Source of the DNA: Nitriliruptoraceae bacterium
GTDB taxonomy: Bacteria > Actinomycetota > Nitriliruptoria > Nitriliruptorales > Nitriliruptoraceae
Direction: 5' to 3'
NCBI GenBank assembly: GCA_020832455.1
Contig: JAFIEQ010000002.1
Location: 1-64,000, forward strand
Length of the DNA: 64,000 nucleotides
Part shown: one piece after another, positions 29,776 to 49,644 of the stretch
How the letters are laid out: each line of letters opens with the position of its first letter
Position numbering within the stretch: the first letter of the stretch is position 1
Translations under genes and position numbers: made by a program
The notes under the pieces: generated by a model
What the model saw: only the letters and a program-made list of their open reading frames with translations
The model's database searches: none
Told to the model about the DNA's origin: nothing

Positions 29776-32673
29776 TCAACGGTTCGGGATCAGCTCGCGC
29801 AGGAACTTGCCCGTGTAGCTCGCGGCGGCGCCGGCGATGTCCTCCGGGGTCCCGGACGCGACGATCGTCCCACCGCCGGTCCCACCCTCCGGACCGAGGT
29901 CGATGAGGTGGTCCGCGGTCTTGATCACGTCGAGGTTGTGCTCGATCACGATGACCGTGTTGCCCTTCTCCACCAACCGGTGCAGCACCTCGAGCAGACG
30001 GCGGATGTCCTCGAAGTGCAGCCCGGTCGTGGGCTCGTCGAGGATGTAGACGGTCTGCCCGGTCGCCCGCTTGCGCAGCTCACTGGCGAGCTTCACCCGC
30101 TGGGCCTCGCCCCCGGACAGGGTGGTCGCCGGCTGGCCGAGACGGACGTAGCCGAGCCCGACGTCGACCAGCGTCTGCAGGTGGGAGGCGATCCGGGGGA
30201 TGTTGGCGAAGAACTCGAGCGCCTCCTCGATCGGCATCTCCAGCACCTCGGAGATGGTCTTGCCCTTGTAGTGGACCTCGAGCGTCTCCCGGTTGTAGCG
30301 ACGCCCCTTGCAGACCTCGCACGGGACGTAGACGTCGGGCAGGAAGTGCATCTCGATGCGCAGCGTCCCGTCGCCGCGACACGCCTCGCACCGGCCGCCC
30401 TTGACGTTGAACGAGAAGCGACCGGGTTGGTAGCCACGGACCTTGGCCTCGTTGGTGGTCGCGAACAGCGCACGGACGTGGTCGAACAACCCGGTGTAGG
30501 TCGCCGGGTTGGACCGCGGGGTGCGACCGATCGGGGACTGATCGACGATGACGGCCTTGTCGACCACCTCGAGTCCCTCGATGCGCTTGTGTGACCCGGG
30601 GCGCTCGCGCGAGCCGTAGACGTGCCGCATCAGCGCCTTGGAGAGGATGTCGTTGACCAGGGTCGACTTGCCGGACCCGGAGACACCGGTGACGCAGGTG
30701 AAGGTGCCGAGCGGGAAGCTCGCGTCCACATCCCGCAGGTTGTTCGCCGACGCGCCCAGGATCTCGATCGCCCTGCCGTCGCCCGGCCGGCGCTCGCTCG
30801 GGAGCGGGATGCTGCGCTCGCCGGACAGGTACGCACCGGTCAGCGACTTGCGGGTCAACCGGCGCAACTGCTCGACGGATCCGGAGTGCACGATCTCGCC
30901 ACCGTGCTCACCGGCCCCGGGGCCGATGTCGACGACGTGGTCGGCGGCATCGATGGTCGCCTCGTCGTGCTCGACCACGATCAGGGTGTTGCCGAGGTCG
31001 CGCAGCCGGATGAGCGTGTCGATGAGACGCTCGTTGTCGCGCTGGTGCAGCCCGATCGAGGGTTCGTCGAGCACGTAGAGCACCCCGACGAGGCCCGCAC
31101 CGATCTGGGTCGCGAGGCGGATGCGCTGGGCCTCCCCACCCGAGAGCGTGCCCGCCGCCCGGTCCAGGGTCAGGTACTCCAGCCCGACGTCGAGCAGGAA
31201 CCGCAGCCGCGCCCGGATCTCCTTGAGGACCCGCTCACCGATCAGCGCCTCGCGGTCGGTGAGCGCCAGCGACTCGACGAACGCGTCCGCCTCGGCCACC
31301 GACTTCGAGGTCAACGAGGCGATGTCGACCCCGCCGACGGTCACGCCGAGCACCAGCGGCTTGAGGCGGCGACCGTCGCAGGCCGGGCAGGCGACCTCGC
31401 GCATGTACTGCTGGACCTGGTCGCGGACGTGGTCGGACTCGGTCTCCTGGTGGCGTCGCTTCAGCGAGGCGATGACCCCCTCGATGCGCGCCTTGTAGGA
31501 CCGTCGACGCCCGTACCGGTTGGTGTAGGAGACCTGGACGCGCCCCTCGGCGCCGTGCAGGATCGCGTCGCGCGTCCGTTCCGAGAGCTCGCGCCACGGG
31601 GTGTCGGGCTCGTCACCGAAGTGGGTCACCACCGCGCGCAACAGCTGGCGATAGTAGTTCGACTGCGCGCCGGTCCCCCACGGCAGCACGACCCCCTCAT
31701 CGACGGAGAGGTCCTCGTCACCGAGCACGAGTTCCGGGTCGACCGTGAGCTGCGTGCCCAGCCCGGAGCAGGTGTCACAGGCACCGTAGGGCGAGTTGAA
31801 CGAGAAGTTGCGCGGTGCGAGCTGGTCGAACGACAGGCCACAGGACGCGCAGGCCAGGTGCTCGGAGAAGATCAGCTCCTCGGCTTCGGGCTCGGGCTCC
31901 CCGGCCTCACGCGCGGCGTCGATCACCTCACGGGCGGGCAGCACCTCGATCATGGCGACGCCGTCGGCGAGCTGCAGCGCCGTCTCGATCGAGTCCGACA
32001 ACCGCCGGCGCAGGTCCTGCTTCTGCACCAACCGGTCGACCACCACCTCGATGGTGTGCTTGACGTTCTTCTCGAGCTTGGGCACCTCGTCGATGCCGAA
32101 GACCTCGCCGTCGATACGCACCCGGGCGTAGCCGTCCGTCGAGAGCTGCTGGAACATCGCGGCGTGCTCGCCCTTGCGACCGCGCACCACCGGCGCCAGC
32201 ACCTGGAAGCGGGTGCCCGACGGCAGCTCGCCGACCTGGTCGACAATCTGCTCCGCGGTCTGACGCGCGATCGGCTGGCCACAGTTGGGACAGTGCGGTT
32301 GCCCGATGCGCGCGTAGAGCAGACGCAGGTAGTCGTAGATCTCCGTGATGGTGCCCACGGTCGAGCGCGGGTTGCGCGAGGTCGACTTCTGGTCGATGGA
32401 GATCGCCGGGGACAACCCGTCGATGAAGTCCACGTCCGGCTTGTCCATCTGCCCGAGGAACTGTCGGGCGTACGCCGACAGCGACTCCACGTAGCGACGC
32501 TGGCCCTCGGCGTAGATCGTGTCGAACGCCAGGCTGGACTTGCCGGAACCGGACAGGCCCGTGAACACGATCAGGCTGTCGCGCGGCAGGTCGAGGTCGA
32601 CGTCCTTGAGGTTGTGCTCCCGGGCACCGCGCACGGTGATGGTGTCGCGATGGGAGGCGCGGGGTGCGGCCAC
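29776..32673 (-). CDS. uvrA: excinuclease ABC subunit A
   Basis: [58 protein letters not shown]; zinc fingers; GTG/ATG start about 32673. Confidence 0.97.
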
Positions 32674-33053
32674 AGCAGCTTCCTCGGTGATGGGTTGGAC
32701 GACCCCGGCACACGCATGGTCCGCACACCGCGGGACCATGGCGCCGTCCGGAGGCGACGCAGGGACCCCGCGGCCGGGGCCGCGACGGGATCGACGGGAC
32801 GTGAAACATCCGGAGCGCGTCGGCCGGTGGGATCGCGTCAGCGTATCGATGCCCATCCTAGCCCCGTCCGGCGTCCCGGGTCGAACGTCTGTTCGCACCG
32901 GGGCCGGGGGCGATCCGGACGACATCGGGACCGCCCGCGCCGCGGATGCGAGCAGCGGACGGCCCCCACCGGGCGCCGGTCACCGGTCGGCCCCCGTTAG
33001 GCTCGGGCGGTACCCGGGACGACCCGGGGTCCGATCCCCCGTGAGGAGGTCAC

Positions 33054-34067
33054 GTGCGCATCGCCGTGTTCAGCACCAGGCCCTACGACCGTCGCTTCCT
33101 CGACGCGGAGGCGGCGAACCACCCCGAGCTCGAGCTCACCTTCCTCGAGGCGAGACTCGATGCGACCACCGCCAGCCTCGCCGACGGGCACGACGCGGTG
33201 TGCGCCTTCGTCAACGACGACCTCAGTGCCCCGGTGCTGGACGCGCTCGCCGGGTCCGGCGTGCGACTGGTCACGATGCGGTGTGCCGGGTTCAACAACG
33301 TCGACCTCGAGGCAGCACGGCGCAACCACATCACGGTGACCCGCGTGCCCGCCTACTCCCCCTACGCGGTCGCGGAGCACACCGTGGCGCTGATGCTGGC
33401 CGTCGAACGTCGCCTGCACCGGGCCTACAACCGGGTCCGTGAGGGCAACTTCGCCCTGGAGGGCCTGCTCGGCTTCGACCTCCGGAACAAGCGCGTCGGC
33501 ATCATCGGGACCGGGAAGATCGGCCAGATCGTCGCCCGGATCATGCGCGGGTTCGGCTGCTCGCTGCGCGCCTACGACCCGTTCCCCAACGACGAGGTGC
33601 GCGACTACGGCGTGCGCTACGTGGACCTCGACACGATGTTCGCCGAGTGCGACGTGATCACGCTGCACTGCCCGCTCACGCCGGAGACCCACCACCTCAT
33701 CGACGAGGCGGCACTGAACAAGATGAAGCCCGGCGTGATGATCGTGAACACCTCCCGCGGGGCGCTGATCGACACCCGCGCGGCGATCGAGGCGCTCAAG
33801 GACGGCCGGATCGGCAACCTCGCACTGGACGTCTACGAGGAGGAGGGCGACCTGTTCTTCGAGGACCTGTCCGACAAGGTCATCCAGGACGACGTCTTCT
33901 CGCGGCTGCTCACCTTCCCCAACGTGTTCATCACCGCCCACCAGGCGTTCTTCACCGAGGAGGCGCTGACCAACATCGCCCAGACGACCCTCGGCAACGC
34001 GAGCGTCTTCGCCCGCGACGAGCGCTCCGGGAACGAACTGACCCCCGAGGAGATCCGCGGTGCCTGA
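33054..34067 (+). CDS. D-2-hydroxyacid (D-lactate-like) dehydrogenase
   Basis: [30 protein letters not shown]-type C-terminus. Confidence 0.9.
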
Positions 34068-34713
34068 GTACACCGGCCACGTCGAACCGGATGGCGAGTG
34101 GCAGGACCGACGCGACGGCGACGTCCTGATCCGCAAGCTCGCCGTCGAGGAGTTCGACAACAACGTCTACGTGGTCGTCGACACCATCAGCGGCCGCGCG
34201 CTGCTGATCGACGTGGCCGCCCGACCGGAGCGCCTCGCCGATGCGGTGGCCGGCTTCGAGGTCGTCGCCGCGGTCCAGACCCACGGCCACTGGGACCACG
34301 TCCGGGCGTGGGACGGGGTCCGCGACGAGCAGGGCATCGAGGTCTGGGGGCACCAGGCGGATGATCCGCTCTTCCCCCGGCCGGTCGACCGGGCGCTCGC
34401 GGGTGGGGAGCGCATCTCGCTCGGCGGCGTCGAGGTCGAGGTCATCCACCTGCCCGGGCACACCCCGGGTTCGCTGCTCTTCCTCGTCGAGGGCGCCGAG
34501 CGGCCGCACCTGTTCAGCGGGGACACGTTGTTCCCCGGCGGTCACGGACGGACAACATCCGACGAGGACCACGAACTCATCATGGACGGCCTCGAAGAGC
34601 AGATCTTCGGGCGGCTCCCCGATGACACGTGGGTCTACCCGGGCCACGGGGACGACACGACGCTCGGAGCCGAGCGTCCCCATCTCGCGGAGTGGCGCGA
34701 ACGCGGCTGGTGA
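34060..34713 (+). CDS. MBL-fold metallo-hydrolase; chimera of host 5' part (34060-34530) and element-supplied 3' part (34531-34713)
   Basis: [35 protein letters not shown]; homologous alternative 3' end found at 43263-43445. Confidence 0.9.
34531..34547. repeat. attL core, ttccccggcggtcacgg
   Basis: Identical to 43263-43279. Confidence 0.9.
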
Positions 34714-34715
34714 GC

Positions 34716-34746
34716 CGTTGCCCTCCGCACCACCTGGAGGGCAACG
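34716..34746 (+). promoter_or_regulatory. 11-bp perfect hairpin cgttgccctcc-gcaccacct-ggagggcaacg spanning the SD of the first element ORF
   Basis: Read directly; stop of MBL at 34713, SD-like ggagg 34736-34740, ATG 34748. Confidence 0.6.
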
Positions 34747-34747
34747 C

Positions 34748-35041
34748 ATGAGCGAAGCACAGGAAGTCCACGAACCGGACTCGACGGCCGTCACGATGCT
34801 CGAGCAAGGGCTAGTGACGTTGCTGGCGAACATGCCGTTCGGCGCGAACGCAGCCAACCCCGACCACCCACACGAGACGTTCGCCCGGATGCATGAGGAC
34901 GACCCCGTCTATCTGCTCGGTGGCTTGCAGCGGATCGCGTGGACCGCTGACGCGCTGCGGACCGACTACGACCGGGAGCTCTCGGCATACCACGAGCAGG
35001 AGCGGACGCGGCTGCGGTTGGCCGGAGAGCAGTCGGCATGA
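34748..35041 (+). CDS. hypothetical protein (element cargo)
   Basis: 97-aa MSEAQEVHEPDST...; SD ggagg; ORF overlaps next by 4 bp. Confidence 0.6.
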   Translation: MSEAQEVHEPDSTAVTMLEQGLVTLLANMPFGANAANPDHPHETFARMHEDDPVYLLGGLQRIAWTADALRTDYDRELSAYHEQERTRLRLAGEQSA

Positions 35042-35280
35042 GCGATACCAACGCACCCGGCCCGCTCACGACGAACCTCGCCGCCGGATCGGTCAGCGCC
35101 GCCCGCGCCGCTGCGCTGACCCACGCACGGCGGGCCGTCGAGCTGCTCGAGGGGATCGAGGCGGGCGAGCCGCTGAAGTTCGCGACCGACGACGACCCGT
35201 CCATCGTGCTCTCTCGAGCCGCCGCGGCGCTGGGCGAGGCCGAAGCGATCGCGTTCGCTCGTGAGCGCCACGCCAGGTAG
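35038..35280 (+). CDS. hypothetical protein (element cargo)
   Basis: 80 aa, ATGA overlap with previous ORF. Confidence 0.55.
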   Translation: MSDTNAPGPLTTNLAAGSVSAARAAALTHARRAVELLEGIEAGEPLKFATDDDPSIVLSRAAAALGEAEAIAFARERHAR

Positions 35281-35328
35281 GCGCACCCCGAGCACCCGGA
35301 CCCCCGTCACCTGGTGGCGGGGGTCCGC

Positions 35329-35592
35329 TCATGCAGCCTCGGACGCACGACGTTCACGCTGCAGCTTCTGACGCTGCCCCGGCGACAGGCCGCCCCACAC
35401 ACCGTCGCGGTGCCCCTCCACCAACGCCAGCTCGAGACACGGGACGCGGACCGGGCACCGTTCGCACGTCGCCTTGGCGTCGGCGATCGCTGCCGTCGTG
35501 TCGGCGCCCTTGCCCTCCGGGAACCACGGGTCGTAGTCGGCGGTGGCTTGGCCCCGGCACGCCGCCCGTTCCTGCCACCCGACGTCGCTCAC
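35329..35592 (-). CDS. WhiB-family Fe-S transcriptional regulator
   Basis: C..., CERCPVRVPCLELAL, GVWGGLSPGQR; four-Cys WhiB pattern. Confidence 0.9.
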   Translation of the reverse strand: MSDVGWQERAACRGQATADYDPWFPEGKGADTTAAIADAKATCERCPVRVPCLELALVEGHRDGVWGGLSPGQRQKLQRERRASEAA

Positions 35593-35828
35593 GACGCCGC
35601 CGCACGGCGCTCCCACATCCGTGCACGGATCGGGTCGAGCCCGTCCTCGACCGGGCCGCAGTCACGTAGATGGTTCACCAGCGTCGCAACCGTCCCCATG
35701 TCGAACCCCGGGTCCACATCGGCACGCTTCGCGAACGTGACCAACGACCTGGCCATCGACATCGAAGCCGGGTTCGACCGGTACGTGAACCGGCGAGCCA
35801 ACGTCCGGCACCGCTCCTCGTTGGTCAT
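35589..35828 (-). CDS. hypothetical protein
   Basis: MTNEERCRTLARRF...; overlaps WhiB start by 4 bp, minus-strand operon. Confidence 0.55.
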   Translation of the reverse strand: MTNEERCRTLARRFTYRSNPASMSMARSLVTFAKRADVDPGFDMGTVATLVNHLRDCGPVEDGLDPIRARMWERRAAAS

Positions 35829-36073
35829 CGCGCACCCCCACGGAGAAGCTCGTCCAGCTCCGCATCGGTGACGCCGGCCTCCGCGCCCGGCGCCCCACCG
35901 ATCTGCTCGACCAGGGCGCGCAGCTCGCGGTGCGCCGCCGGGGTCGCGTACGCAGGGATCTCGCCGTCGTCCAGGTGCTTCGCGAGCATGACCGCCTGAG
36001 ACGCGAGCACCTGCGCCTCGGTCCCGAGGCTGGTCGCCTTGATGAGGCGACGTACCGCCGTGGCGATCTTCAC
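35825..36073 (-). CDS. hypothetical protein
   Basis: 82 aa; ATGA-type overlap with following ORF. Confidence 0.55.
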   Translation of the reverse strand: MKIATAVRRLIKATSLGTEAQVLASQAVMLAKHLDDGEIPAYATPAAHRELRALVEQIGGAPGAEAGVTDAELDELLRGGAR

Positions 36074-36194
36074 GATGCACCTTCAGGTCGGGAACGCTTT
36101 TTTCCTGCCGTGGGGACGGTTACCGATGGCGCGGAGTCATGGCCGGATCGGGTGCAGCCCGTGGTCGACCCCCCGCCCACCCTCCGCGCCCGCG

Positions 36195-36680
36195 TCACTT
36201 GCGCGACGCGGCCAGCTCGTCGGCCAACAGCTGGTGACGCCACGCCGTCTCGGCTGCACGCCACTTCGCGCTCGCCCGGTGCAGCACCTCGCGTGCCAGG
36301 TCACGTTCGCTGTTCAGTTCGTCCAGGACCTCACGAGCCTTGCGCAGACGCCGAGGGCCCTTGGGGTCGGTGAACATCTGACCGAGCTTGTTCACCATCA
36401 CGGGGCCGGCGTCCTGGGCGGCGCGCTCGGCGAGCGCGGCGGCCTGCCACTGTTCGTCGATCCGCTCGAACGCCGCTGCGGCGATGTCTCGAGCTTCGGC
36501 CAGCTCGACCACTTCGGCGGGCGGTTCGGGGTCGGGGCCGGTGTTGGGGGTGCGTGGCGGGAACGCCTCGTTGTACTCGCGGCTGGTCCACGGTCCGTAG
36601 TGGCCGGAGACCTCGTAGAGCCGGGCCGTGCGTGCGTCGACGTGCGGGTCGACGGGCTGGGTCTTGGTTCGGGTTGCCAT
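36195..36680 (-). CDS. hypothetical protein, probable alpha-helical/coiled coil
   Basis: ORF 36195..36695, likely start MATRTKTQPV. Confidence 0.55.
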   Translation of the reverse strand: MATRTKTQPVDPHVDARTARLYEVSGHYGPWTSREYNEAFPPRTPNTGPDPEPPAEVVELAEARDIAAAAFERIDEQWQAAALAERAAQDAGPVMVNKLGQMFTDPKGPRRLRKAREVLDELNSERDLAREVLHRASAKWRAAETAWRHQLLADELAASRK

Positions 36681-36691
36681 GGTTGCTCCTG

Positions 36692-36907
36692 TCACGCCTG
36701 GGTTCCGACGACGGTCCAGGTGGGCTCGGCCCTGGTGCCGGTGTTGATGTAGAGCACCGCGTTGGTGGCGTCGATCAGCAGTGCCCCGCGGTGTGCGACG
36801 CCGGCCAACGTCTGCTCCTCGGCGACGTTGGACGGTGTCCCGTCCACGGTGTAGGTGCCGACGAGTTCCGACCCCTCGATGATGTTTCCGCCTTCGATGA
36901 CTGCCAT
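36692..36907 (-). CDS. small phage decoration/head-fibre-like protein
   Basis: 71 aa MAVIEGGNIIEGSELVGTYTVDGTPSN...DATNAVLYINTGTRAEPTWTVVGTQA, resembling phage head-associated small proteins; lies next to head protease. Confidence 0.5.
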   Translation of the reverse strand: MAVIEGGNIIEGSELVGTYTVDGTPSNVAEEQTLAGVAHRGALLIDATNAVLYINTGTRAEPTWTVVGTQA

Positions 36908-36921
36908 TGGTGTGCCTTCCG

Positions 36922-37560
36922 TCAGGTGGTTGGGATGCCGTGCGAGGTCGCGACGAACTGCGCGTACAGCGCGGTTCCGTCGACGTTGTCGGTGTGGCGG
37001 GACGGCTCGATGACCTCGTCGGCCAGGCCGGCGGTGACGGCCTGACGGGCGTCGAACCACGTCTCGGCGGCCATGAGCTTCAGGTAGCTCGCGGGGGTGC
37101 GCCCGGACCGGTTCGCGTAGATCTTCGCGATGACGTCGTCCTGGCGGTCGAGCAGCGCCGCGAACGTGCGCATCTCGTCGCCGTCACCCATCGCGAGGCC
37201 CCACGCCCGGTGGATCATCATCTGTGCCCCGCCGAGCATGACGCGCCGGTCGCCCGCCTGGGCGATCACCGACGCGATCGACGCAGCGACACCGGTCACC
37301 CTTGTGGTGACGTGCGCGGGGTGGGCACGCAGCGCGTTGTACAGCGCCACCCCGTCGAACACGTCCCCGCCGGGCGAGTTGATCTCGACCCGGATGCGCG
37401 GCGAGTCGATGGCGTCCAGGTCGCGGGTGAACTCGTCGGAGCCGAGCACCTCGTCGAAGACACGCACGACGGTGGTGTCGGTCTCGGCACGGTTGTGGAT
37501 CGTGTACCACGCGGTGCGAGGTAGGCGGGCGGTGGCCCGGTTGCGGGCGGACAGGTCCAT
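36922..37560 (-). CDS. ClpP-like phage head maturation protease (S14)
   Basis: INSPGGDVFDGVALYNALRAH, TGVAASIASVIAQAGDRRVMLGGAQMMIHRAW (Ser/His catalytic context). Confidence 0.85.
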   Translation of the reverse strand: MDLSARNRATARLPRTAWYTIHNRAETDTTVVRVFDEVLGSDEFTRDLDAIDSPRIRVEINSPGGDVFDGVALYNALRAHPAHVTTRVTGVAASIASVIAQAGDRRVMLGGAQMMIHRAWGLAMGDGDEMRTFAALLDRQDDVIAKIYANRSGRTPASYLKLMAAETWFDARQAVTAGLADEVIEPSRHTDNVDGTALYAQFVATSHGIPTT

Positions 37561-37568
37561 CGGGGCTC

Positions 37569-38117
37569 CTAGTTGCGGTTGCGGTGCGCGGCGGCCATGT
37601 ACGCGGCCGCGAACCCGGCCTCGTAGTCGCGGGCGTCGTGCTCGTTGGCGACGTAGCCGTCCAGGTCGACGGGGTCGAGCTGGGCGAGGTGGCGGCACTC
37701 GTGCGCGGCGGTGCGCATCGCCTGACGGACCGGGAGGTCCATGCGGATCAGCACCGCGGGCGGGTCGCCACGTAGGGCCCGGCCGGCCAGGTTGTCCGGC
37801 CCGTCGAACTGCTCGAGCTCGTCGCCGCCGAACTCGTCACGGTGCGCCCGGTCGGCGGCCGTCTCGTGACGGAACCAGCGGACCTCGGGCCGGTCGATGC
37901 CGAGCAGGGACACCACCGCGGAGACGACCGCGCCGACGGCCTGCACGGTGTCGGTGGGGACGATGGGCCGGCCGACCTCGGTGTAGGTAGCGGTGCGGTC
38001 CGAGTAGCCGAGCTGGGACATCGCCTGACGACGGTCGAGGTCGTTGCAGGTGTCGATGAACCGGCGGTACTCGTCGCCGATGATGAACCGGATGTACTCG
38101 TCGTGAGGCTCGATCAT
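37569..38117 (-). CDS. HExxH putative metallopeptidase-like protein
   Basis: AMRTAAHECRHLAQLD; start MIEPHDEYIRF. Confidence 0.6.
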   Translation of the reverse strand: MIEPHDEYIRFIIGDEYRRFIDTCNDLDRRQAMSQLGYSDRTATYTEVGRPIVPTDTVQAVGAVVSAVVSLLGIDRPEVRWFRHETAADRAHRDEFGGDELEQFDGPDNLAGRALRGDPPAVLIRMDLPVRQAMRTAAHECRHLAQLDPVDLDGYVANEHDARDYEAGFAAAYMAAAHRNRN

Positions 38118-38509
38118 GCGGCGTTCCTCCGTGCGGCTTCGGCGGTCACCGCGTCGGCGTCGAGCAGCCATCGGCCCGCGGCCTGGACGCCACCGAGGTC
38201 GGGGGCGAGGTTGCGGACCTGGCGTTGCGAGAGGTTGAGCATTCGGGCGGCCTCGGCGATGTCGACGTGTCCGGATGATGCCGAGGCGTCGACCACGGCC
38301 GTTTCCGCGTTGCCGACCACGGAAGTGCGCCATCCTTCGGCGGCCGCGTGCAGCGCGGCGACGGCGGCGAGCATCCGTGCCCGGTCGGGTTCGGGGAGAC
38401 GGTCGAACCGGCCCTGACGGTGTGCGTCGGTCGCGAGCCGGGACAGGATCGCGGCGGGAAGCCCCTCGATGACGGCGCCGTGCCGGATCAGCGGGACCGG
38501 GGCGCTCAT
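38114..38509 (-). CDS. HTH DNA-binding protein (excisionase/MerR-like HTH)
   Basis: VDIAEAARMLNLSQRQVRNLAPDLGGVQAAGRWLLDADAV. Confidence 0.65.
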   Translation of the reverse strand: MSAPVPLIRHGAVIEGLPAAILSRLATDAHRQGRFDRLPEPDRARMLAAVAALHAAAEGWRTSVVGNAETAVVDASASSGHVDIAEAARMLNLSQRQVRNLAPDLGGVQAAGRWLLDADAVTAEAARRNAA

Positions 38510-38572
38510 CGGTCGCCCTCCCCGTCGTCGCTCGTGCTTCCCACGAGGTCGGTTGCAGGGTTGCTGCGGGGC

Positions 38573-38735
38573 ACCCTCACGAACGGCCCCCCTAAAGGGG
38601 GGCACGTTCGCGTGAGGGTCAGGCGCGTGAGGGTCGTGAGGGTCCCGTGAGGGGTCTCGTGAGGGTGTTGTGGGGCATCGGGCGGTTCCGTGAGGGCACA
38701 CGTCCGAAACGGGTGCGTGAGGGGGTGCGTGAGGG
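38573..38735. repeat. CGTGAGGG iteron-like array plus hairpin; candidate replication origin or regulator-binding region
   Basis: CGTGAGGG at 38611, 38626, 38635, 38646, 38658, 38689, 38716, 38728; inverted copy CCCTCACG at 38574; stem GCCCCCC-TAAA-GGGGGGC at 38586-38603. Confidence 0.7.
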
Positions 38736-39797
38736 TCATCCGGCCACCTCAAGCGCGGTCGTGGCAGGCAGGTACAGCGCCGGGATTCCCGCGGCCGGAT
38801 CGCCTTCCCGCTTGCGTGCGAGCTGCCTGCCGGTCAGCCCCTCAAGGCGACGCCGTGCACGCTCCACGTTGGCGCGTGAGGGGTCGGGGTCGCCCGTGAG
38901 GGCCTGGGCCATGGTCCGGGCGGTAATGCCCTTGACGGCGGCGTTGAGGATCGTGAGCGGGTCGGGTTTGTCGACGGTGGAGGTGACCCCGGCGTCGTGG
39001 TCGTGCATGAGCTGCCAAGGGCCGACCAGCTCGGCCGGTTGCTTGAGGTGGGTCAGCTCCACGATGGGGTCTCCGGCCGCACCCCAGAGCAGCACGACCG
39101 ATCCGGCGCCTGCCGTGATCCATGCCGAGCCGTAGACGTCGGCGAGGCCGGTGGGCTTGCGGTTGTCGCCGGATGCTTTGCGTTGGTGGTGGAGGCCCAT
39201 CGTCTCGATGTCGGCGGCGACCAGGTGCTGAAGTGCGACGTTCAGGGCGGATCCGACCTCAGGTTTCTCGAGGCCGGGGGCGACGTCCTTCAGGCTGTCG
39301 ATGACGACCGTGCCGACGCCGTAGTGGTCAGCCATCGACGCGAGCCGTTCCGGGTCGGTGGTCAGGTCGAACGGGAGCGGGCCGCGCCACACGATTAGGT
39401 TCCGGTCGAGCTGGCGCCGGTCCTCCTCGCTGACCATCCGTCGTAGTGACCGGGCTGCCTGCCGTGGCCGGTCCGCCGCGATGTAGAGCGTCGGCCGGTC
39501 GTCGGCCTCGACCGGGAGGCCCAGGAGCTGCCCGTCGAGCACGCCGGCACGTCGGAGCACGGCCTGTTGCCCAAGGGTGGTCTTGCCGACGCCGGGAGGG
39601 CCGCAGACGAGCAGCGGTTCACCCTTGGACCAGATGACGTCGTTCCCGTCGCCCCAGACGGCGGGGACGCCGTCGGGCTGGTCGAGCACGAACGCGCCGC
39701 CGGGCTGGTGGCGGTCGAAGCTCGGCGCTGGTTCCGGGTCGGCGTGGCGCAGGGCTGACGTTGCGAGTTGGTCGAGGTCGAGGGGGGCGGCGCTCAT
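38736..39797 (-). CDS. RepA/RecA-like AAA ATPase (replicative-helicase-type)
   Basis: LLVCGPPGVGKTTLGQQAVL Walker A, TVVIDSLKDV Walker B; 353 aa. Confidence 0.8.
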   Translation of the reverse strand: MSAAPLDLDQLATSALRHADPEPAPSFDRHQPGGAFVLDQPDGVPAVWGDGNDVIWSKGEPLLVCGPPGVGKTTLGQQAVLRRAGVLDGQLLGLPVEADDRPTLYIAADRPRQAARSLRRMVSEEDRRQLDRNLIVWRGPLPFDLTTDPERLASMADHYGVGTVVIDSLKDVAPGLEKPEVGSALNVALQHLVAADIETMGLHHQRKASGDNRKPTGLADVYGSAWITAGAGSVVLLWGAAGDPIVELTHLKQPAELVGPWQLMHDHDAGVTSTVDKPDPLTILNAAVKGITARTMAQALTGDPDPSRANVERARRRLEGLTGRQLARKREGDPAAGIPALYLPATTALEVAG

Positions 39798-40654
39798 GTT
39801 GCGACCTCCGGCAGCTCGGCCGGTTGGTCGAGCCCTGACCCGAACCCGGATGCGATCGTGCGGGATGCTTCGCCGTTACCGAGCCCGCAGGCTGAGGCCG
39901 CGGCATCGAGCGCAGCGAGTGCGGCATCGGGGTCGAGCGCGCCGGCTGCGGTGAGCTGGCCGAGGCGGAACGCTGCCCGGTTGAGGGTGTGGTTTCGGGT
40001 TCCGGTCGCGGCTGAGGCGACGTCCTCGAGTTCGCCGCGGACCGCTGCGGTCGTCCATGCGGCGAGCCTGCCGGCAACGCCAGACACGGCCGGGGCGACC
40101 GGACGGGCTGGCCGTGGTGCGTCGGCCGGGACGGTCAGTAGGTCGATCCATGCCGGCGGGAGTTCGGGCGGGTCGGGCGGGCCGGGCCACGGTTGGTCTC
40201 GCCACTGGTACGGGGCGTCGTTCACGACCGATGGTGGGGCGAGCACGTAGCCGCCGTCACCTCGCACATCGACTCCCGTGCCGAGCTTCCCTGCTGAGCA
40301 TGGGACGCGGATGCCGGGGTGGCGGTAGTAGCCGTGCATCCCACCTCGAGGGGTGTGGACGGCGACGGCTCGGGGTAGCGGTCCATGCTCACGGACGAGT
40401 TCGTGCATCGTGGGCTCGCCACCAGGGTCGACGTCGATGACGACCAGGCCAGACACGGCACCGGTGGCGATGCCGACGTTGTAGGTCGGGACGGCTTCCC
40501 ACCAGTCGATGATCCGGTCAGGGTCGGTGGTCGCGTCGTGGAACCCGTGGGGGGTGGCGGGGAGCTTCGCGCCGGCGCGGACGGGCAGGACGTTCCATTC
40601 CCAACCTCCGGCGTAGGTCAGGGCGTCGTGCATCGGACCGAGGTGGTCGCTCAT
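39794..40654 (-). CDS. bifunctional DNA primase/polymerase (prim-pol) N-terminal domain protein
   Basis: NVLPVRAGAKLPAT, GIATGAVSGLVVIDVDPGG, TPRGGMHGYYRHP; directly upstream of helicase. Confidence 0.85.
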   Translation of the reverse strand: MSDHLGPMHDALTYAGGWEWNVLPVRAGAKLPATPHGFHDATTDPDRIIDWWEAVPTYNVGIATGAVSGLVVIDVDPGGEPTMHELVREHGPLPRAVAVHTPRGGMHGYYRHPGIRVPCSAGKLGTGVDVRGDGGYVLAPPSVVNDAPYQWRDQPWPGPPDPPELPPAWIDLLTVPADAPRPARPVAPAVSGVAGRLAAWTTAAVRGELEDVASAATGTRNHTLNRAAFRLGQLTAAGALDPDAALAALDAAASACGLGNGEASRTIASGFGSGLDQPAELPEVAT

Positions 40655-40986
40655 GGGCGGACCTCCCCGGCGTCGTAGACGTGCGCGACACGGCCCGGGA
40701 ACTGCACGGTGGATCGGATCCGCAGCCACGACGGGCGGACCGCCCCGCCGTTGGCGACCAGCTCGAACAGGACAACGTCGGGTACGACGTCGACGCAGCG
40801 GGTCGCGTCACAGACACGGACGGGGTCGCCGGTTCGGAAGGCCTCGACGGCGGCGGGCTTGAGGTGGTCGGTGCTGAGTCCACGGCCGAGCGGTGACGTA
40901 TCCTGTGAGGGTCGTTCAGCTGCCCGCTGACGGTTTCGGGAGCCACGTCCTGCCGGGGACGTGGCTCTCTGCATGGGGTCGCTCAT
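40651..40986 (-). CDS. hypothetical protein
   Basis: 111 aa, 4-bp overlap with prim-pol start. Confidence 0.55.
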   Translation of the reverse strand: MSDPMQRATSPAGRGSRNRQRAAERPSQDTSPLGRGLSTDHLKPAAVEAFRTGDPVRVCDATRCVDVVPDVVLFELVANGGAVRPSWLRIRSTVQFPGRVAHVYDAGEVRP

Positions 40987-41198
40987 GTGGTAGCCCCGTT
41001 CCCACGCAGTAGGCGTGCGAGGCGGGTCCGCTGTTCGTCGGTCAGCGGTGGTGCGGCCGCTACGACCTCGCGGACGTGATCCTCCAGGCGCGCAGCGCGT
41101 AGGTCTCGGCGGGCGTCTTCGAGACGTTCGGTGTCACCAGAGTGGTGACGGGACAGAGCGGCAACTCGGGCGCGCTCAGCTCTCCAGGTGGTCGACAT
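40983..41198 (-). CDS. hypothetical protein
   Basis: 71 aa, 4-bp overlap with downstream ORF. Confidence 0.5.
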   Translation of the reverse strand: MSTTWRAERARVAALSRHHSGDTERLEDARRDLRAARLEDHVREVVAAAPPLTDEQRTRLARLLRGNGATT

Positions 41199-41299
41199 CC
41201 TTCAGCCTTGGGACAGGGGTTACCTGCCCCCCGCTGAGGGAGCCTGACGTCGAGGGGGGTGATCGGCGGGCCTCGGCCACCGGCAGCCGCTAAGGGCCG

Positions 41300-41674
41300 C
41301 TATTGCTCGGTGAGCCTAGCATCGGCCGAGACGTCAACCGTGGACGTCCACACGTCCTCCCGCGCCGGCAGGGCGGCGAGAATCGTCGTGGACTTCAGAA
41401 CGACGTCGATCGCGCACGAACGGTCGCGGCAACGGATGCGGACACCCTTCACGAAGCCGTCAGCGTCGCCGGCTGGTGCGTTCATGCTCGACACCGGCGG
41501 CGAGACGGTGGCGTACGAACCGTCCGGGTTGCGCGATTGACCGTGACGGCGCTGAGTGCCGACGCGAACGGCGATGGTGTCGAGCACCATCTCACGGTGA
41601 GTTCCCCCACCGGTGCAGACGACGACGATCTTCCGGATGGGCTCCCGGTCCTTCGCGTTCCGCCTGCGGCTCAC
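41300..41674 (-). CDS. hypothetical protein co-transcribed with integrase
   Basis: GTG 41674 overlaps integrase TGA (41671-41673); RIRCRDRSCAIDVVLKS. Confidence 0.5.
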   Translation of the reverse strand: MSRRRNAKDREPIRKIVVVCTGGGTHREMVLDTIAVRVGTQRRHGQSRNPDGSYATVSPPVSSMNAPAGDADGFVKGVRIRCRDRSCAIDVVLKSTTILAALPAREDVWTSTVDVSADARLTEQ

Positions 41675-43197
41675 GGCTGGCCCTTCCACTCGATGTGGAC
41701 GTCCTCCGGGACGAAACCGGGCCCCTGACGGGTCGGCATGATCTTGACGACGATGCCGAGGACCTCGAGGACGGCACGACGACCCCCTACGTCGAGGGAC
41801 AGCCACGCGGCTGCAGCCTGGTCCCCCACGATGCCGTCGAGGACGTCGGTGCCGCCAGCCGCGGCCGAGAGGATCTGGCGATACTCGGCCTCCGCCTCGT
41901 CGAGTTCAGGACGTAGGCGATCCGTGATGCGTGCGAGCTGCCGGGCGTCGATGCCGCCCTCCGCGTACTGGTCTGCGGCCTGATCCAGGCGGCCGCGGAT
42001 GGTCTCGGCTCGCCCCTGAGCCTCGGCTGCGTCAGCGAGCTCGACCGTGAACGCGTCCGCTGCATCGGGTCGGGACAGACGCTCGACCACGACCGCGCTG
42101 ACCAGCTCATCGACGCGCTCGTCGGAGCGACCAACGCACCCCTCACGGTCGCACACGTACAGCGGGTAGCTCTTGCCTCGTGCCCGCTTGACGACGTGGC
42201 GTAGCTGCGACCCGCACACGCCGCACTCCCCCACGCCGTAGGTGAGCAGGTGCCGCCGCTCGGAGGCGGTGGCGCGAGAGGTGCGCCGGTTGGGGTTGCT
42301 CAGTAGCGCCACGACCTGGTCATGCTTGTCCCGGTCGATGATGGCCGGCCACGCGGCCTCGCCGATGACGACACGATGATGCACGCGCTCGGCGACGTTC
42401 GCGGGTCGCATCGCGAGCTTGCGTACGGTCGAGTTCAGCCAACGAGGGTGGCCGTCCGAGCGGTCGCCCTGGGGGGCCGGTTTCCCCGCCCTGAGAGCGA
42501 GGTGGTGTCTCGGTGTCGGGAGGCCGCGGGCGTTCAGGTCGTCGCGGACCTTGCTCAGCGACTCGCCACCGAGAAGCCGGTCCACGATCTCCCGGACGAC
42601 CCCGGCGGCTTCCGGGTCCACCTCGTCGTGCCACTCGATGACCTCGCCGGCAGCGTTGCGCTCACGGATGCGCCGCCACCCGTACAGCACGTGGCCGGCA
42701 GCCTTGCCGTCGCGGGCACGCTGTAGCGCGGCGCGGGCCACACGTTCGCCCTTGACGTCGGACTCCATCGAGTCGAACGCTCCCAGCAGGTCGGCCATCC
42801 CGCGACCGTAGGCGGATGCGAGGTCGAGGTCGGGGCCCTTCACGGCGACGAGCGACACCCGGGCGGCGGCGAGACGGCGGATGATGGCGCCGCGGTCCTC
42901 CCGGTCGCGGACGACACGGGAGGTGTGCCAGCACACGATCCGGTCGAACCCGCCCGCGTCGGCATCGTTGAGCAGCTGCAGGTACCCGGGACGCTCGCGG
43001 CGGGGCGACCCGTTGCCGCTGTAGCCGTGGAAGGCCGACACGTCGTTGTCGACGTACTCGCCTACGACGTCCCACCCGCGCCCCTCGGCCAGCGCACGGC
43101 CGTCCTCGAGCTGTCGGCGGACGCCGGCCTCCGTGCCGAGGTCGTCCTCGCTGATGCGGGCGTACAGGGCGCATCGGGGGGTGGTGTTCGTGGCCAC
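41671..43197 (-). CDS. large serine recombinase / integrase
   Basis: CALYARISEDDLGTEAGVRRQLE (catalytic Ser), recombinase domain, zinc ribbon CGVCG...YVCDREGC, coiled coil; ORF extends to 43236. Confidence 0.95.
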   Translation of the reverse strand: MATNTTPRCALYARISEDDLGTEAGVRRQLEDGRALAEGRGWDVVGEYVDNDVSAFHGYSGNGSPRRERPGYLQLLNDADAGGFDRIVCWHTSRVVRDREDRGAIIRRLAAARVSLVAVKGPDLDLASAYGRGMADLLGAFDSMESDVKGERVARAALQRARDGKAAGHVLYGWRRIRERNAAGEVIEWHDEVDPEAAGVVREIVDRLLGGESLSKVRDDLNARGLPTPRHHLALRAGKPAPQGDRSDGHPRWLNSTVRKLAMRPANVAERVHHRVVIGEAAWPAIIDRDKHDQVVALLSNPNRRTSRATASERRHLLTYGVGECGVCGSQLRHVVKRARGKSYPLYVCDREGCVGRSDERVDELVSAVVVERLSRPDAADAFTVELADAAEAQGRAETIRGRLDQAADQYAEGGIDARQLARITDRLRPELDEAEAEYRQILSAAAGGTDVLDGIVGDQAAAAWLSLDVGGRRAVLEVLGIVVKIMPTRQGPGFVPEDVHIEWKGQP

Positions 43198-43237
43198 GGC
43201 CGCTCCGCTCTCGAGATCAGGGCTTGACCGTAGCAAG

Positions 43238-43247
43238 TGTTGTCCGT
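43238..43247. repeat. attP arm TGTTGTCCGT (inverted copy ACGGACAACA at 34548-34557)
   Basis: Perfect 10-bp inverted repeat, symmetric about TT in reconstructed attP. Confidence 0.75.
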
Positions 43248-43262
43248 AGCGTGCCGTAGGTA

Positions 43263-43279
43263 TTCCCCGGCGGTCACGG
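43263..43279. repeat. attR core, ttccccggcggtcacgg
   Basis: Identical to 34531-34547. Confidence 0.9.
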
Positions 43280-43445
43280 CAAGACCGCGGACGAGACCGA
43301 GCACCACCGGATCATGGACGGACTCGAGGCGCAGATCTTCGGCCGGCTCCCCGACCACACCTGGGTCTACCCCGGTCACGGTGACGACACGACCCTGGGC
43401 GCCGAACGTCCCCACCTGCCGGAGTGGCGCGAACGCGGCTGGTGA
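43263..43445 (+). pseudogene. displaced original 3' end of the MBL-fold hydrolase gene
   Basis: 61 codons in frame to TGA, same length as 34531-34713, translates [60 protein letters not shown]. Confidence 0.9.
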
Positions 43446-43581
43446 GCGGGCGCCGCCGGGAACACGTCCGTCGTCGCTGGATCGGCGGGATCGGCGGCCG
43501 GGACCGCGGCATCGAGGCCGGCTGGGTCCGTCGGCACCGGTCGCGGTCCTGCCGGGGAGGTGTCAGCAGGTCCGTGCGTCG

Positions 43582-47520: not shown

Positions 47521-49644
47521 TCAGATGTTGGCGGCCTGCATGGACTTCAGCTCGCGCTTGAGGTCGTTGACCTCGTCGCGCAGCCGCGCGGCGTACTCGA
47601 AGCGCAGTTCGCCCGCCGCGGTGTGCATCTCCTCCTCGAGCCGACGGATCAGCGCGCTGAGGTCCTCCTGGGGCAGCTCGGAGGCGTCGATCGCCCCGGC
47701 ACCGACCCCGGCCGGCGCCTCGTCCGGCTGGTAGGCCTCCCCGAGCTCCTCGGCGCGCACCGCCTGGATGATGTCACCGACGCGCTTGCGGACCGTCTGT
47801 GGGTCGATGCCGTGTTCCGTGTTGTACGCCACCTGCTTCGCCCGGCGGCGGTCGGTCTCGTCCAGCGCCGTGCGCATCGCGTCGGTCACGTGATCGGCGT
47901 ACATCACGACCTGGCCGTCCACGTTGCGGGCGGCACGTCCGATCGTCTGGATCAGCGAGGTCGACGACCGCAGGAAGCCCTCCTTGTCCGCGTCCAGGAT
48001 GGCGACGAGCGACACCTCCGGCAGGTCGAGCCCCTCGCGCAGCAGGTTGATCCCGACCAGCACGTCGAACTCGCCCATCCGCAGGCTGCGCAGGATCTCC
48101 ACCCGTTCCACCGTGTCGATGTCGGAGTGCAGGTAGCGCACCCGGACCCCGTTCTCCAGCAGGTAGTCGGTCAGGTCCTCCGCCATCTTCTTGGTGAGCG
48201 TGGTGACCAGCACCCGCTGGTCCTTGTCGGTGCGCTGACGGACGAGTTCCATCAGGTCGTCGATCTGGCCCTGGGTCGGCTTGACGACGACCTGGGGGTC
48301 GACCAACCCCGTGGGCCGGATGATCTGCTCCGCGATCGTGTCCGATTCCCGGCGCTCGTAGGGGCCGGGGGTCGCGGAGATGAACAGCCGTTGCCCGATC
48401 CGGGCGAGGAACTCGTCGAAGGTCAGCGGCCGGTTGTCGCGCGCGGAGGGCAGGCGGAACCCGTGGTCGACCAGGCTGTCCTTGCGGGAGCGGTCGCCCT
48501 CGTACATCCCGCCGACCTGCGGGACCGACACGTGCGACTCGTCCATGAACACCACGAAGTCGTCCGGGAAGTAGTCCAGCAGCGTGTAGGGCGACTCCCC
48601 CGGCGCGCGACCGTCGAAGTGGCGCGAGTAGTTCTCGATGCCGTTGCAGAACCCGACCTCGCGGATCATCTCCAGGTCGTAGTTGGTCCGCATCTTCAGC
48701 CGCTGCGCCTCGAGCAGCTTGCCCTCGCGCTCGAACTCCTCGAGCCGCTCGCCGAGCTCCTGTTCGATGGAGGTCAGCGCCCGCTGCAGCGCCTCCTGCG
48801 AGGAGACGTAGTGCGAGGCGGGGAAGATCGCGGCCTGCTGGATCGGCTTGGAGACCTCACCGGTGAGCGGATCGACGCGGGTGATCCGGTCGACCTCGTC
48901 ACCGAAGAACTCGACCCGCAGCGCGCGCTCGTCGTCGGCGGGGAACACCTCCAGCGTGTCACCACGGACGCGGAAGGTCCCGCGCACCAGGTTCATGTCG
49001 TTGCGCGAGTACTGCAGCGACACGAGCTTGCGCAGGGAGGCGTCGAGCCCGATCTCCTCGCCGCTGCGGAAGGACAGCACATGGTCCTCGTACTCGAACG
49101 GTGACCCCAGGCCGTAGATGCACGACACGGACGCGACCACGACCACGTCGCGGCGCGACAGCAACCCCATCGTCGCCCGGTGCCGCAGCCGGTCGATCTC
49201 GTCGTTGATCGACGAGTCCTTCTCGATGTAGGTGTCACTGGAGGCGATGTAGGCCTCCGGTTGGTAGTAGTCGTAGTAGGAGACGAAGTACTCGACGGCG
49301 TTGTCGGGCAGGAAGTCGCGGAACTCGTTGGCGAGCTGCGCGGCGAGCGTCTTGTTGGGCGCCATCACCAGGCAGGGCCGCTGGAGGCGCTCCAGCACCT
49401 TGGCCGCGGTGAAGGTCTTGCCGGTCCCGGTCGCCCCGAGCAGGGTGACCGCACGCTCGCCCGCCTCGAACGCCTCGGTGATCTCCTCGATGGCACGCGG
49501 CTGGTCCCCGGCGGGGCTGAACTCGCTCACGACCCGGAACGGGGTGTCGTCGCGGACGTTGCGGTGCAGGCCCGAGCGGTCCGGACGGACGTGGTCCGCG
49601 GCGGGATCGGGGCGGGTGGCATCGGTGGCGCTCATGGCGAGCAC
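47521..49644 (-). CDS. uvrB: excinuclease ABC subunit B
   Basis: [36 protein letters not shown]-terminal UVR motif. Confidence 0.97.

Follow-up and report, generated by a model that had tools for sequence, protein, structure and literature searches.

Positions 34531-43262 of the window (the whole 64,000-nucleotide stretch analysed) hold one integrated element of 8,732 bp, placed at the 3' end of a metallo-hydrolase gene in a chromosome of actinobacterial type. The element is, on a modest balance of probability, an integrated phage satellite that adds a protease and a small head protein to particle parts supplied in trans. This reading is favoured by the clean att-bounded insertion, the replication module, the head genes of phage type and the lack of recognised shell, packaging or tail genes, as well as by the capsid-bearing elements with related genes that occur in the same genome and in the same family.

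The minus strand of the element encodes a serine integrase, a primase-polymerase, a helicase, an HTH protein, a HExxH protein, a ClpP-like head maturation protease, a small head-type protein and a WhiB regulator, and two plus-strand genes are placed at 34748-35280 (Table 1). All the genes that an earlier sequence-only reading had named in this mostly minus-strand series are thus present. The recognised genes are all intact, and the packing is tight from the HTH gene to that of a 161-aa protein, with spacers of 8, 14 and 11 nt between the HExxH, protease, small protein and 161-aa genes. The HTH protein may be an AlpA/Xis-like regulator. The gene set is known from a single copy.

Table 1. Features of the integrated element and of its attachment sites (window coordinates).
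Feature	Position	Strand	Basis or remark
Left att	34531..34733	+	Element-borne copy of the 3' end of a metallo-beta-lactamase-fold hydrolase gene (host gene 34060-34713)
97-aa protein	34748..35041	+	No family; relative at L173:7662-7934 in the contig-34 element of the same genome, phmmer E 7.6e-20
80-aa protein	35038..35280	+	No family match; codon-position bias
WhiB regulator	35329..35613	-	PF02467 E 3.5e-19; 49% to the WhiB of the contig-34 element
82-aa protein	35825..36073	-	No family match
161-aa helical-hairpin protein	36195..36680	-	No family; AlphaFold pLDDT 79.5; no significant fold match
71-aa small head protein (post-capsid, decoration-like)	36692..36907	-	51% to a ctLpZ231 protein
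ClpP-type head maturation protease, 212 aa	36922..37560	-	PHROGs head maturation protease E 2e-65; tree; alignment
HExxH protein, putative metallopeptidase	37569..38123	-	Motif AAHECRHL; no family above cut-off
HTH protein	38114..38509	-	HTH_28 E 0.004
AAA_25 helicase	38736..39797	-	phrog_6012 E 1.7e-90
Primase-polymerase	39794..40657	-	PF09250 E 1.6e-44
111-aa protein	40651..40986	-	No family match
71-aa protein of phage family phrog_24177 (unknown function)	40983..41198	-	E 7.8e-8
Possible 119-aa protein	41300..41659	-	No family match
Large serine integrase	41671..43236	-	Resolvase and Recombinase domains; phrog_95 E 7e-93
Right att	43263..43465	+	Original hydrolase 3' end, displaced by the insertion

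The limits of the element are set at 34531-43262 because a direct repeat bounds it and the empty site is contiguous in relatives; the extent first proposed, 35329-43236, was too short at both ends. The repeat measures 203 nt (34531-34733 and 43263-43465, 79% identity) and corresponds to the hydrolase gene's 3' end. Its left copy starts with a 17-bp core, TTCCCCGGCGGTCACGG, that is identical in both repeats. The upstream gene, the hydrolase end and the downstream flank are contiguous in many relatives, such as L121, and none of the 29 relatives examined carries the element at the hydrolase site. Given the 21% difference between the carried and the host hydrolase ends, the element probably came from a host other than the present one. 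The integration site is flanked by a uvrA-like gene on one side (window 29776-32925) and a uvrB-like gene on the other (47521-49644).

Among phage integrases, those of the Larva group (Mycobacterium phage Larva) are closest, with 41% identity over 99% of the length. Next to their integrase gene, these phages have the same hydrolase 3' end. When position 43262 is joined to 34531, the resulting attP aligns with the attP of Larva across the junction and the integrase falls in the same place. The related integrase, the same target gene and the homologous attP are those of a Larva-type serine integration module. The integration systems of the element and of the Larva group (Kratiovirus) are therefore alike, whereas that of Larva belongs to a complete 63-kb phage. 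The family phrog_21189, named 'hydrolase' in PHROGs, is the attachment fragment (window 34531-34710). The short 'hydrolase' annotated in Larva-group Mycobacterium phages is likewise the 3' end of a bacterial gene carried at attP, and a role as an enzyme is improbable. A further record with the same hydrolase end, H103, was rejected, as it is a bacterial fragment.

The reading frame of the protease extends to 37698, but no plausible start codon precedes the ATG at 37560, which lies 8 nt beyond the HExxH gene. In a maximum-likelihood tree, phage and cellular proteases are separated with 100/100 support, and the protein falls on the phage side, next to the proteases of L004 and of the G048 prophage (98/87; 56 and 53% identity), both of which sit in complete head operons. 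The catalytic Ser and His are conserved in the alignment, and the third position is read as Glu, as in most phage relatives. These sequence comparisons identify the ClpP-like protein as a head maturation protease of phage type; a grouping with non-phage proteases, which would have spoken against the sequence-only reading, was not found. By comparison of ORF lengths it is a short protein (212 aa), without the long C-terminal extension that many phage proteases have. In 397 genomes of the phylum, the other protease matches are placed within head operons, as judged by their neighbouring genes. As a control, the ORF downstream of a related protease was inspected in 71 other viral loci: it matches phrog_29 in 59 and mostly other major-head families in the remainder, so that a capsid gene nearly always adjoins the protease. 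In the element, no recognised portal or capsid gene adjoins the protease. Omegavirus was rejected as a donor of the protease, its own being unrelated.

The decoration-like protein of the sequence-only reading does exist, and its gene is 36692-36907, which is preceded by a plausible ribosome-binding site, rather than 36195-36680, which encodes a helical protein without relatives. Relatives of the small protein were found in three phages (ctLpZ231, L116 and L117), and in all three the gene lies directly 3' of a PF05065 major capsid gene and 5' of the connector genes. Its origin in a head operon is shown by these sequence contexts, and the decoration-like role is putative. The protease is of the Peptidase_S78 type in ctLpZ231 and L116, and none is recognised in L117. 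Since both phages with a recognised protease use the S78 type and not the ClpP type, the pair carried by the element is a mosaic. In this small sample of three phages, this speaks against the pair being one phage operon from which the capsid gene was removed.

The sole sequence hit of the 161-aa protein, in G010, was rejected as a shadow ORF over ribosomal protein genes. Its fold matches are generic coiled-coils only; Sid of P4 is among them at E 0.9, which is no evidence. No relatives of the HExxH protein were found in the genomes of the class, in phages or in viral contigs, and its predicted model is poor and not usable. The zinc-protease gene of the Omegavirus head region was tried as its relative and rejected, with no detectable similarity.

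All 81 ORFs of at least 50 aa in the six frames of 34531-43262 were compared with PHROGs and Pfam at E 0.01. The 13 Pfam families matched include no capsid, portal, terminase or tail family. Among the 25 of 39 PHROGs families listed, the head maturation protease is the sole structural one, and gene-by-gene family scans likewise gave no capsid, portal, terminase or tail match. The earlier statement that no such gene could be recognised in any frame holds within these scans, and the divergent capsid or terminase genes that would have contradicted it did not appear in the profile searches. A very divergent small terminase subunit may hide among the proteins that lack a family match, such as the 82-aa protein. 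Neither a packaging gene nor a packaging site was identified in the element.

The replication module consists of the helicase and the primase-polymerase. The sequence-only reading had called the helicase RepA-like, that is, of plasmid type. Its relatives are found in Omegavirus phages, and the helicase of an element in G007 is 62% identical, whereas none of 72,556 plasmid records gives a match; by these matches it is classed as phage-type. A helicase scan of genome contigs returned one locus, in Streptomyces, with no head genes in view.

The host genome contains two capsid loci. The one on contig 34 (L173, 1797-7934) belongs to a second, cut-off element with a phrog_2263 capsid protein, a weak connector match, a WhiB, an integrase and the relative of the 97-aa protein. 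This capsid protein is most similar to those of Omegavirus and 31% identical to the capsid protein of L004. Contig 24 (L172, 145-6069) holds a candidate third element with a tyrosine integrase, a regulator and a replication initiator; its phrog_10 capsid gene lies at the contig edge. The draft genome, 93% complete, yielded no PF04860 portal, no S78 protease and no other head protease, and no helper phage was identified for the element. A comparable case is offered by G007, of the same family as the host, in which a 10,236-bp element bounded by 45-bp repeats is inserted at tRNA-Leu (L111:5729-16009) and encodes a tyrosine integrase, the related helicase, TerS, TerL and capsid; no protease, portal or tail gene was recognised in it. 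The two elements share the host family, the helicase and the format of a small att-bounded element (10.2 kb in G007). On the other hand, the G007 element differs in its tyrosine integrase, its tRNA-Leu site and its TerS, TerL and capsid genes, and in having no recognised protease or small head protein. In another contig, L160 (G105 contig 315, 5306-11289), a terminase gene and another large gene lie on the strand opposite to a protease and a capsid-like gene, which is possibly a rearranged element.

Under the satellite reading, the Larva-type large serine integrase inserts the element at the hydrolase 3' end, as the anatomy of the att sites shows, and would excise it as an 8.7-kb circle, restoring the hydrolase end. 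The circle would then be replicated, probably by the primase-polymerase and the helicase, to judge from their families. Because capsid, portal, terminase and tail genes are absent from the element, these parts would come from elsewhere in the cell, supplied by a helper phage or by another element. The protease and the small head protein may process and decorate the borrowed procapsid, perhaps favouring the genome of the element itself. For this, the protease inside the borrowed procapsid would have to recognise a foreign capsid or scaffold protein. This requirement counts against the reading, and so do the single known copy of the gene set and the failure to identify a packaging gene or site in the element or a helper in the draft genome. 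The timing of expression may be set by WhiB and the HTH protein. A more specific proposal, which we regard as improbable, is that a head module is split over co-resident satellites: the window element would provide the protease and the small head protein, and the contig-34 element the capsid and a connector-like protein. The two would complement each other and then borrow portal, terminase and tail from a helper. A hint in this direction comes from phage L004: its protease is the closest relative (56%), and its capsid protein belongs to the contig-34 family (31% identity). The WhiB and the 97-aa protein are common to both elements.

The main rival to the satellite reading is decay, which we judge unlikely as a whole. 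A defective prophage or a capsid-forming satellite would have lost capsid, portal, terminase and tail by deletion, and the two head genes would be leftovers. The gene order of phages (portal, protease, capsid, with the small protein after the capsid) is such that deletions could leave this pair, and the single known copy of the gene set fits such a history. However, several deletions would be needed, each of them clean between genes, as the short spacers require, and neither the att ends nor any recognised gene is damaged; moreover, the recognised partner phages of the small protein use an unrelated type of protease. Interference is a quite improbable alternative, in which the protease, together with the small protein, would cut or mis-decorate the helper procapsid, and the spoiled assembly would protect the host or favour the element. 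Interference through remodelling of helper capsids is described for known satellites (PMC10945586, PMC12409344), and the shortness of the protease would also suit this role, but a scan of ten proteins gave no match to a known defence model.

It is very improbable that the element is an integrative plasmid or a conjugative element with phage genes as cargo. Primase-polymerase and helicase genes occur in plasmid-like elements too, and this counts for such an origin. Against it stand the phage-type integrase and att sites and the helicase, which matches Omegavirus phages and no plasmid record; in addition, neither the gene scans nor the 81-ORF six-frame scan found a relaxase, a TraB/FtsK-type gene or any other conjugation or transfer gene. 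Of the two origins proposed by the sequence-only reading, a satellite or a plasmid-like element, the satellite is thus the better supported and the plasmid-like element finds no support.

The sequence-only reading could name no satellite family for this gene set. A resemblance can be named, since the closest known kind is the actinobacterial satellite (candidate PICI or phiRv1-like), yet the capsid gene that defines this kind is absent. For the candidate PICIs of Mycobacterium, among them phiRv1/phiRv2-like elements, the defining genes are an integrase and a major capsid gene (PMC10654092). Like them, the window element is a small integrated actinobacterial element with a helicase, a few virion genes and no complete phage, and some of them also have serine integrases (PMC10654092). 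As in PICIs in general, a small att-bounded island combines a replication module with regulators, without tail and lysis genes. An integrase does lie in a phage-like region, but in place of a capsid gene the head genes are a protease and a post-capsid protein. The cf-PICIs encode capsid, protease, portal, connectors, both terminase subunits and HNH (definition given in PMC10690885) and depend on a helper for tails. They share with the window element the head maturation protease, which is the only member of their head and packaging set found in it. The element therefore falls outside both the candidate-PICI and the cf-PICI classes, because it lacks the capsid gene.

A likeness of another sort is found in satellites that remodel capsids, as described for P4, PLE and SaPI (PMC10945586, PMC11718236, PMC12409344); a large serine recombinase is a further feature that PLE has in common with the window element (PMC6002521). 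P4 (Sid, Psu) and PLE (TcaP) give accessory head proteins and borrow the major capsid protein. These are external scaffold or decoration proteins, however, and no sequence relation to the window element was found. Within the part of the literature covered, no satellite was found to have a head protease while lacking a capsid gene. Surveys with the capsid gene as their marker would miss such satellites, and the co-resident capsid-bearing relative makes complementation between satellites, as a hypothesis, directly testable. Among known satellites, some make the complete head (cf-PICI), some carry a capsid gene, and some alter a borrowed capsid through scaffold or decoration proteins; if the satellite reading is true, a maturation protease without a shell would be a new way to exploit or control the head of a helper.
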